Assembly (NCBI RefSeq): GCF_030553305.1
Contig: NZ_JARRAH010000001.1
Coordinates: 1,860,001-1,924,000, forward strand
Source of the DNA: Halomarina ordinaria
GTDB taxonomy: Archaea > Halobacteriota > Halobacteria > Halobacteriales > Haloarculaceae
Length of the DNA: 64,000 bases
Direction: 5' to 3'
Made by a program: the position numbers and the translations under genes. Positions 26,715 to 44,168 of this stretch are shown here, piece after piece (the stretch's first letter is position 1; the number at the start of each line of letters is the position of its first letter). The notes below the pieces were generated by a model, which ran no database searches, was not told where the DNA came from, and saw only the letters and a program-made list of their open reading frames with translations.

Positions 26715-27092
26715 ATGACAGCACTCGTCACGGACGAGCGTCGCGAGACGCTCGTCAGCGCCGCTCGAACCGCCATCGGAGACGACCTCCGGAGCCTGGT
26801 CTACTTCACCCCCGAGGAGTGGGAACGGCTCTACCTGCGGAGCGACCTCGACCGGGACGCCGACGTCGAGCGCTTCGCCGCCAACGAGCGCCTCGCGTTC
26901 GCCGACCTGCGCGCCTACGGCACCTCCGAACTCGGCACCTACCAGTTCACCATCAGGGCGTTCACCGACGGCTACGTCGTCCGGGTCGTCGACGGCGAGG
27001 AGGGGACGTTCGCCACCACCGACGCGATGCCCATCACGCTGTTCGAGGAGGTGGCGACGGCGCTCCGGCGGACGCTCGCGAGCGAGGAGTGA
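26715..27092 (+). CDS. conserved haloarchaeal protein (DUF7522-like)
   Basis: 125 residues from ATG 26715. No known function. A soluble alpha/beta protein with LVYFTPEEWERLYLRSDLDR, then FADLRAYGTSELGTYQFTIR, then DGYVVRVVDGEEGTFATTDA. I remember this as a common haloarchaeal family (DUF7522, number uncertain). There are no cysteines, membrane segment or signal. It is the last gene before a tRNA-repeat region, 50 bases after the MFS gene. Confidence 0.72.
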   Translation: MTALVTDERRETLVSAARTAIGDDLRSLVYFTPEEWERLYLRSDLDRDADVERFAANERLAFADLRAYGTSELGTYQFTIRAFTDGYVVRVVDGEEGTFATTDAMPITLFEEVATALRRTLASEE

Positions 27093-27289
27093 GCTGCCGG
27101 ATTTGAACCACGGTCGCTCGCTGGCGCTCGCTCCTCGATTCAAATCGGCAGCGGTGTACTCGGCACGGCGCTGCGCGCCGGCCTCATGGGCCCTGCCGGA
27201 TTTGAACCACGGTCGCTCGCTGGCGCTCGCTCCTCAGTTCAAATCCGTCGGGGTTCCGCGCGACCGCTCGCTGACGCTCGCGGTACTCG
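27093..27289 (-). repeat. two palindromic copies of the CAU tRNA 3' end (tRNA-tail repeats)
   Basis: Read in the direction of the tRNA (minus strand), the gene's own 3' end is followed twice by an inverted T-arm, a GAGCGAGCGCCAGCGAGCG spacer and a direct copy of the T-arm plus acceptor strand. Direct copies lie at 27185-27209 (25 identical bases including the trailing CATG) and 27094-27110. 43 bases, 27094-27136 and 27193-27235, are identical between the two copies. Each copy can fold as a hairpin because the inverted and direct T-arms pair over 11 bases. No protein coding is seen. Confidence 0.75.
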
Positions 27290-27291
27290 CA

Positions 27292-27366
27292 TGGGCCCTG
27301 CCGGATTTGAACCAGCGCTCAACCGGTTATGAGCCGGTCGCTTTGACCTGACTAAGCTAAGGGCCC
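27292..27366 (-). tRNA. tRNA with CAU anticodon, probably tRNA-Ile2
   Basis: 75 bases. Acceptor GGGCCCT pairs with AGGGCCC (27299-27293), discriminator A. The anticodon stem ACCGG/CCGGT closes loop CTCATAA, anticodon CAT. The T-arm is GGTTCAAATCC. CCA is not encoded. The sequence lacks an intron, while the elongator Met tRNA I know from Haloferax has one, and the initiator has a different acceptor stem. So a CAU-reading isoleucine tRNA, modified with agmatidine, is the likely identity. Confidence 0.85.
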
Positions 27367-27468
27367 TCAGTCCAGGGTTTTCTGTCGCGCCTCTTTAGTG
27401 TGCCGAGACGGGTCGGCAAGCGTCGCGCGGGACGCAACGGGTTTGCACGCCGCCCCGAATCGGAGGGC

Positions 27469-28098
27469 ATGACCGGAGAGGCCAGCGAGTCCGCGGGCGC
27501 GGTGAGCGCGACGCTCCGACTCGCCACGCCCGGGGACGCGGGCGCGATTCGCGACGTCTACGCCCCCTACGTCGAGGAGACCACTATCACGTTCGAGCGG
27601 ACGCCCCCGACCGAAGCCGAGATGCGAGCGCGCATCGAGTCGAAACGGGAGGCCTACCCGTGGCTCGTCTGCGAACGCGACGGCCGGGTGGTGGCGTACG
27701 CCTACGCCGGCCCGGTGCGCTCGCGGGCGGCCTACCGGTGGGCGACCGAGAGTTCGGTGTACGTCGCCGACGGCGCGAAACGGGCCGGCGTCGGTCGGGG
27801 CCTCTACACCGCCCTGTTCGACCTGCTCGCCGGGCAGGGCTACTGTAGCGTCTACGCGGCCGTCACGCTCCCCAATCCGACGAGCGCCGCCTTCCACGAG
27901 GCGTTGGGCTTCGGGCGCGTCGGCGTCTGGGAGGACGTCGGCTACAAACTGGAGGAGTGGTGCGACGTGGGGTGGTTCCGTCGCGCGCTGTGCGACCCAC
28001 CGGCCGACCCCGACCCGCCGCTCCCCGTCGCCGACGCGCGGGAGGCGTCGTGGTGGGACGAGGCGCTCCGCGCGGGCGAGGCGGTCATCGAGTCGTAG
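27469..28098 (+). CDS. GNAT N-acetyltransferase, phosphinothricin acetyltransferase-like
   Basis: 209 residues from ATG 27469. Upstream in-frame sequence is rejected because this ATG directly precedes the conserved region. The GNAT fold is evident: LRLATPGDAGAIRDVYAPYV at the start, YAYAGPVRSRAAYRWATESS in the middle, and the acetyl-CoA loop SVYVADGAKRAGVGRGLYTA (RxGVG/A). NPTSAAFHEALGFGRVG closes the domain. This matches the PAT/YwnH subgroup that acetylates amino-acid-like toxins or methionine derivatives. The C-terminal 30 residues extend beyond the usual end. Confidence 0.87.
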   Translation: MTGEASESAGAVSATLRLATPGDAGAIRDVYAPYVEETTITFERTPPTEAEMRARIESKREAYPWLVCERDGRVVAYAYAGPVRSRAAYRWATESSVYVADGAKRAGVGRGLYTALFDLLAGQGYCSVYAAVTLPNPTSAAFHEALGFGRVGVWEDVGYKLEEWCDVGWFRRALCDPPADPDPPLPVADAREASWWDEALRAGEAVIES

Positions 28099-32977: not shown

Positions 32978-33050
32978 GTCCTGGTAGGGTAGTGGACTAT
33001 CCTCTTGGCTTGCGGAGCCAGGGACCGGAGTTCAAATCTCCGTCAGGACG
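32978..33050 (+). tRNA. tRNA-Arg (GCG)
   Basis: 73 bases. Acceptor GTCCTGG pairs with TCAGGAC, including one G-U, discriminator G. Anticodon stem TTGGC/GCCAG closes loop TTGCGGA, anticodon GCG. T-arm GGAGTTCAAATCTCC. CCA is not encoded. It is followed by several repeats of its own 3' end. Confidence 0.93.
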
Positions 33051-33461
33051 TTTCTACGAGGCGTCACGCGACGAGCGAAGCGAGGAGCCGACGCCTCGTG
33101 AAACGCCTCCACGGAGATTTGAGCAGACGAGACGAGCGGTGGCGAGGTCGCTTGCGACCTCGCCCGCGAACGGCGAAGCCGTGAGCGTCAGCGAGTCTCG
33201 GCGAGTTCAAATCTCCATCAGGACGCTCACTTTGTTCGGCGAGTCGCTCGGAGAGCGACTCGCCTCACGGTTCGCGCCCTGACGTGCCTCACGCTCGTTT
33301 TCGTCACCGGCGGCGAAGCCGCCGGTTTCTCGCGGGACCTCCGGTCCCGCGCAGCTCGCGTGAGACTCCGTCAGGACGTTTCTCGCTCGAGGCACAGCGA
33401 CTGTTACAGCTCCGTCTCTGGCCAACGCACGTGTTCCTCCACCAACAGCTACACCCACACC
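33051..33461 (+). repeat. 410-base gene-free region with repeats of the tRNA-Arg 3' end
   Basis: Three tRNA-derived pieces are visible. An inverted T-arm, CGGAGATTTGA, lies at 33112-33122. A direct T-arm plus acceptor copy lies at 33203-33225 (one mismatch to the gene over 23 bases). A second 3' copy, CTCCGTCAGGACGTTTCT, lies at 33366-33383 and matches 33038-33055, that is the gene's end plus five trailing bases. Spacers contain palindromes such as GGCGAGGTCGC/GCGACCTCGCC and CGAGTCGCTCGGAGAGCGACTCG. I see no protein-coding gene. Confidence 0.72.
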
Positions 33462-43972: not shown

Positions 43973-44046
43973 GGGTCCGTGGTCTAGTTGGTCATGACGC
44001 GGCCTTTACAAGGCTGAGGTCGATGGTTCGAATCCGTCCGGACCCA
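43973..44046 (+). tRNA. tRNA-Val (TAC)
   Basis: 74 bases. Acceptor GGGTCCG with CGGACCC, discriminator A. Anticodon stem CGGCC/GGCTG closes loop TTTACAA, anticodon TAC. The T-arm contains GGTTCGAATCC. CCA is not encoded. It is followed by an inverted and a direct repeat of its own 3' end. Confidence 0.93.
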
Positions 44047-44168
44047 CTACTTCTCGCGGCGAACGGACGTGAGCCGCGTGGATCGTGGACTGCGGCGGAT
44101 TCGAATCAGGGAGCACCGCGAACGAACGTGAGCGGTGCGAGTGGGGTTCGAATCCGTCCGGACCCACT
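44047..44168 (+). repeat. tRNA-Val tail repeat
   Basis: An inverted T-arm, CGGATTCGAATCA (44096-44108), is followed by a spacer with GCACCGCGAACGAACGTGAG and then a direct copy at 44145-44168. That copy is identical over 24 bases to 44025-44048, the T-arm, acceptor strand and two trailing bases of the tRNA-Val gene. This is the same arrangement as beside the CAU and Arg tRNAs, but built from the Val sequence. There is no coding in this stretch. Confidence 0.75.

Follow-up and report, generated by a model that had tools for sequence, protein, structure and literature searches.

Short hairpin repeats have been described in several genomic settings. The repetitive hairpin-forming elements and double-hairpin elements of mitochondrial DNA (sponges, Allomyces; PMC2800124) are short hairpins of no known function that proliferate between genes, vary by complementary changes in the stem, often stand in tandem and are spread over many intergenic sites and genes. 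REP elements, which belong to REP-associated transposase systems (PMC3733652), are small extragenic palindromes present in many dispersed copies with a common stem, a tetranucleotide tag (GTAG or CGTC) at the foot of the hairpin and without coding capacity of their own. In haloarchaea, Haloquadratum carries palindrome-associated elements and small mobile repeats, i.e., short non-coding palindromic families with their own conserved ends, related to IS605-type elements or terminal repeats (PMC3119063). Integrative elements at tRNA genes leave a partial direct copy that runs from the T-arm to the tRNA 3' end and keeps the tRNA intact, such copies being only direct and bracketing, or once having bracketed, an element with an integrase, and integron cassette arrays consist of units each ending in a structured, sequence-variable attC hairpin of one orientation, on which an integron integrase acts. 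We compared these systems with the region behind a tRNA-Met(CAU) gene within a window of 64,000 nucleotides from Halomarina ordinaria (contig NZ_JARRAH010000001.1, positions 1,860,001 to 1,924,000), haloarchaeal DNA of about 70% GC.

A sequence-only reading of this region had pointed to two downstream units, each with an inverted T-arm, a spacer and a direct copy of the T-arm plus acceptor strand, that share 43 identical bases. This observation is confirmed. ARAGORN and Rfam place the tRNA on the minus strand, and two units of 105 and 99 nt follow it on the same strand, each with a GC-rich hairpin (H1), an inverted T-arm, a loop of the form GAGGAGCGAGCGCCAGCGAGCGACCGT and a direct copy of the tRNA from GGTTC toward its end. 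The shared 43 bases are 27094-27136 and 27193-27235. Two other tRNAs of the window, Arg and Val, which that reading did not report in this finding, also have the structure, whereas tRNA-Asn and tRNA-Phe do not. The features are as follows (window coordinates):

27292-27366, minus strand: tRNA-Met(CAU) gene, the host of the array
27292-27313, minus strand: tail of the tRNA (G52/G53 to the last base) that is copied downstream
27258-27290, minus strand: unit 1, GC-rich hairpin (H1) directly behind the tRNA
27238-27247, minus strand: unit 1, inverted T-arm (CGGATTTGAA)
27209-27237, minus strand: unit 1, loop CTGAGGAGCGAGCGCCAGCGAGCGACCGT (type A loop)
27187-27208, minus strand: unit 1, direct tail copy GGTTCAAATCCGGCAGGGCCCA, 22/22 identical to the tRNA 3' end
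27159-27183, minus strand: unit 2, GC-rich hairpin (H1)
27139-27148, minus strand: unit 2, inverted T-arm (CCGATTTGAA)
27110-27138, minus strand: unit 2, loop TCGAGGAGCGAGCGCCAGCGAGCGACCGT
27094-27109, minus strand: unit 2, direct tail copy GGTTCAAATCCGGCAG, truncated after GGCAG where it meets the end of the neighbouring gene
43973-44047, plus strand: tRNA-Val(TAC), second host in the window
44050-44166, plus strand: one unit behind tRNA-Val, with H1 at 44050-44078, inverted T-arm from 44094 and direct tail copy at 44145-44166 (22/22)
32978-33050, plus strand: tRNA-Arg(GCG), third host in the window
33113-33225, plus strand: one unit behind tRNA-Arg, with inverted T-arm at 33113-33122, a long loop and direct tail copy at 33204-33225 (one substitution)

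The spacer occurs twice in the window, compared to 0.01 occurrences expected, and the 105-nt first unit folds at z = -4.3. An 82-codon reading frame (27103-27351) runs through both units and the complement of the tRNA; such frames could be annotated as proteins but are repeat DNA.

To determine whether such copies are present at other tRNA genes and in related genomes, a condition on which the finding had been said to stand or fall, we first compared the region to its own genome by BLAST. This gave five further places, all five directly behind another tRNA gene on the same strand. Using stretches around the tRNA genes of this genome, with one tRNA cluster excluded, we found that 15 of 44 tRNAs have an exact copy of at least 12 nt of their own tail within 400 nt downstream, compared to 0 of 44 upstream. 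The same test gave 16/33 downstream in G004 (a genome of the same genus), 9/20 in G019 (same family) and 19/35 in G034 (another family), with 0, 0 and 1 upstream, respectively, and 0/12 in G032. Over these five genomes, 53 of 144 tRNAs have a downstream copy of the whole tail at 75% identity or more, 76 copies in all, and none has one upstream. The own tail is strictly the best match among all tails of the genome in 55 of 59 cases. Thus, the finding survived strongly.

A generic T-arm hairpin pattern was found in 279 of 292 Halobacteria genomes, whereas the reversed pattern, used as a control, gave no hit. Among about 100 other genomes of the phylum, only five have a hit, each a single stray one. 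G032 and 12 other Halobacteria lack any T-arm hairpin. Of 32 hairpin places that were read, 29 are within 500 nt downstream of a detected tRNA, one follows a tRNA-like tail, and two are chance hits inside a gene; at least 16 tRNA species serve as hosts. It should be noted that ARAGORN missed intron-bearing tRNAs, and two apparent exceptions (loci L075 and L101), read by hand, proved to be behind tRNAs. The 26-nt core GTCGCGCGCARCGNAGYGAGCACGTC, which holds no T-arm letters, is present in 75 of 145 Halobacteria; of 33 places read, 31 are downstream of a detected tRNA and the other two stand at a tRNA-like tail whose gene ARAGORN does not see. This core was not found in IMG/VR viral contigs, and the region of the window has no match in phage or plasmid records.

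The direct copy is sharply bounded. Identity to the host is 0.96 at G53, 0.80 at the base before and 0.38 at the base before that; it stays near 0.95 through the tail and falls to about 0.4 from the third base past the tRNA end. Some arrays also repeat the trailer (for example, loci L106, L108, L117 and L130). The inverted arm matches the own tail better than other tails, and hosts with unusual T-loops (TTCGATT and TTCAATT; TTCAACT more weakly) have the matching inverted arm. For direct copies, an own-versus-other identity figure lowered by an alignment offset was not used, and neither were counts of G.T against A.C in the outer arm, which are biased by one fixed G. Loops fall into many types (CAGGGAGCGA..GACCGTGG; CCTGGAAGTCGC..CGTCTTCCTCC; CCTGCCAGTCGCGCGCA..GAGCACGTCTGGCTCC; and others), different types stand in one array, and the GAGCGAGCG-type spacer singled out by the sequence-only reading is only one of them. 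Inner stems covary: in an offset-free test of 66 loops not of type A, the longest run was 4.73, compared to at most 4.20 in 200 partner swaps, and there are 49 different inner stems over all loops. Loops point the same way as the tRNA in 88 of 89 places; the exception (L075, positions 1501-1557) has an inverted loop between arms that keep their orientation.

Loop and tail have different ancestries. In the sampled genomes, the loop of a unit is most similar to loops behind other tRNA species of the same genome (mean best similarity 0.66-0.78), and much less similar to loops behind the orthologous tRNA of the other genomes (0.45-0.57; small n of 3-14). With equal sample sizes, loops are as alike or more alike within a genome or genus than between genera, clearly so in G019 and G000 and only slightly in G004 and G034. 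So the tail belongs to the tRNA and the loop to the genome. Vertical inheritance of a functional RNA or simple tandem duplication would give the opposite for the loop, and cassette insertion would give foreign tails. Arrays also turn over: at the tRNA-Gly(TCC) locus of a genus in which 44 genomes were searched, the distance between the tRNA and the conserved downstream block, in the 17 loci where the tRNA could be placed, runs from about 100 nt to more than 1.3 kb, with different numbers and orders of units. No truly empty orthologous site was found in this genus.

These properties set the units apart from the described systems. Like the mitochondrial hairpin elements, they are repeated hairpins with compensated stems; however, they are not spread over intergenic regions in general, the sites being tRNA tails only, the orientation is fixed, and the arms are copies of the host tRNA. 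By the tests made, they are not a REP system: the places checked lie behind tRNA genes only and are not dispersed, the stems differ from copy to copy and match the local tRNA, and their presence does not follow Y1 transposase genes (PF01797), which are present in 11 of 13 genomes without hairpins and in 12 of 13 genomes rich in them. The Haloquadratum repeats are not tRNA-tail copies. A tRNA attachment-site remnant shares the direct copy of the tRNA 3' part, but not the inverted T-arm and conserved directional core at each copy, the units of about 100 nt, the arrays and the sharing between tRNA species. Compared to integron cassettes, which carry their own, foreign sequence up to the crossover, the units have no reading frames, no integron integrase is identified on present evidence, and the boundary sequence is the tRNA tail, that of the host in 55 of 59 cases. 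A search against Rfam 15 returned no family above its gathering score except the tRNAs themselves. We found no earlier description in the open papers searched, which leave out most subscription journals, and novelty is therefore provisional.

The best explanation, which we consider about as likely as not, is a haloarchaeal family of hairpin repeats that lives only behind tRNA genes, each unit being a hairpin with a directional core (loop), flanked by an inverted T-arm and a direct copy of the host tRNA from the T-stem/T-loop to its last base. The position, the orientation, the host-matching arms, the separate ancestry of loop and arms and the variable arrays are established by the comparisons above, whereas the movement and its mechanism are inferred. 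In this view, the core spreads from one tRNA tail to another inside a genome, using the T-arm motif GGTTCRAATCC (present in nearly all tRNAs) as the landing and priming homology, and the arms and tail are then written from the local tRNA, probably by T-arm-primed template switching or gene conversion, which would also keep the two arms complementary. Template switching between inverted-repeat arms is known to homogenise arms, flip spacers and maintain hairpins (PMC8604942, PMC8794818), and the inverted loop of L075 is what such switching produces (PMC8604942). It should be noted that no insertion event was seen (no empty/filled pair of near-identical strains), so that movement is inferred from similarity patterns; a 22-nt tract is short for homologous gene conversion; only a subset of copies also duplicates the trailer, as simple backward template switching would predict; no protein was linked; and the cross-isotype spread and the sharp stop at the tRNA 3' end are not both explained by one simple event. 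The repeats are most likely selfish or neutral and not needed for tRNA function, because many tRNAs lack them. A bolder form of this reading, which is not excluded but remains tentative and somewhat less likely than not, is a class-wide family of tRNA-restricted repeats that reprogram their own ends: the core would hop between tRNA genes and, at each new site, the arms and a 22-nt tail would be rewritten from the resident tRNA, so that one element could live harmlessly behind any tRNA. To our knowledge, such a mode of spread has not been described for repetitive DNA. If the explanation is right, about a third of the tRNA genes sampled, and nearly all Halobacteria, carry a repeat that nobody seems to have named; it gives a natural system for seeing how a repeat can adapt its ends to its site, shows tRNA tails as hot spots for hairpin growth without viruses or plasmids, and warns annotators of spurious reading frames and of false attachment sites when islands are predicted.

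The interpretation offered by the sequence-only reading is partly supported. Its claim that the structure is more than a leftover attachment site was right, and, of the roles it listed, a small element that copies its host tRNA is the one that fits best. A terminator role is not supported, as no terminator-like site (GC stem followed by a T run) was found in 26900-27600 and many other tRNAs do without; a decoy for tRNase Z or an integrase is likewise not supported, nothing having been found either way.

The main rival, which we regard as unlikely, is site-specific recombination, i.e., the units would be tiny non-autonomous integrative cassettes, with a tyrosine recombinase acting in trans and cutting at the T-arm (G|TTC), the tail copy as the attachment block, the hairpin as a folded recombination site, as attC is in integrons, and the tRNA plus tail copies as a cassette array. 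The sharp block from G52/G53 to the tRNA 3' end is the usual form of a tRNA attachment site, the orientation is single in 88 of 89 places, arrays have mixed unit types and variable order, and archaeal tyrosine recombinases mostly use tRNA genes (PMC8371274). However, a cassette moving to another tRNA would bring the wrong tail and break the tRNA, yet the same cores sit behind at least 16 tRNA species, each with the local tail, and foreign tails were essentially absent from arrays. No recombinase was linked, and the core was not found in viral contigs.

A purely mutational origin is less likely still. Here tRNA genes would be fragile sites, and replication template switching at the palindromic T-arm would keep making inverted and direct tail copies, with no element and no function. 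The known effects of template switching, the arms that track the host and the one flipped loop are consistent with this possibility; however, exact 26-nt cores are shared across families of Halobacteria and many tRNA species, which local errors do not create, and the structure is nearly absent outside Halobacteria although T-arms are universal.

A functional RNA, transcribed with the tRNA and acting in 3' processing, termination or as small RNAs, is improbable. The strict orientation with the tRNA, the conserved hairpin shape with covarying stems and the strong folding point in this direction. Conversely, most sampled tRNAs (91/144) lack a full tail copy, unit number varies freely within a genus, loops do not follow tRNA orthology, and neither a Rfam family nor a terminator-like site was found. 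The sense and antisense strands differ in folding, but the difference remains without G-U pairs, so that this comparison does not tell RNA from DNA. Finally, scars of successively integrated and lost larger mobile elements, with each direct copy an old attR, are very unlikely, because, although the tail copies have the right extent and partial tRNA duplications by integrated elements are known in haloarchaea (PMC3119063), inverted arms and shared cores occur at copy after copy with a spacing of about 100 nt and at many different tRNAs, with 0 hits in plasmids, phages and viral contigs.

The CAU tRNA is intron-less in the window, whereas its orthologues in the same genus (G004 and G005; loci L002 and L003) carry what looks like an intron in the anticodon region, so the intron differs between close relatives. 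In G034, a second repeat, CCCACTTTTTCCGAGGGGCTGCGAAGCAGCCCCTCGCAAAAACTTGGGGAAAAAG or its start, stands behind several different tRNA tails (L108, L118 and L134). A second kind of tail unit uses the acceptor strand as its stem (L301, L294, L296 and L290; also L101, L112, L121 and L122): it includes the acceptor strand, a short loop (CTCACTTCGTTCG), the inverted acceptor strand, a hairpin of the type ACTCCCGC..GCGGGAGT, and then a copy of the tail from the 3' side of the T-stem.
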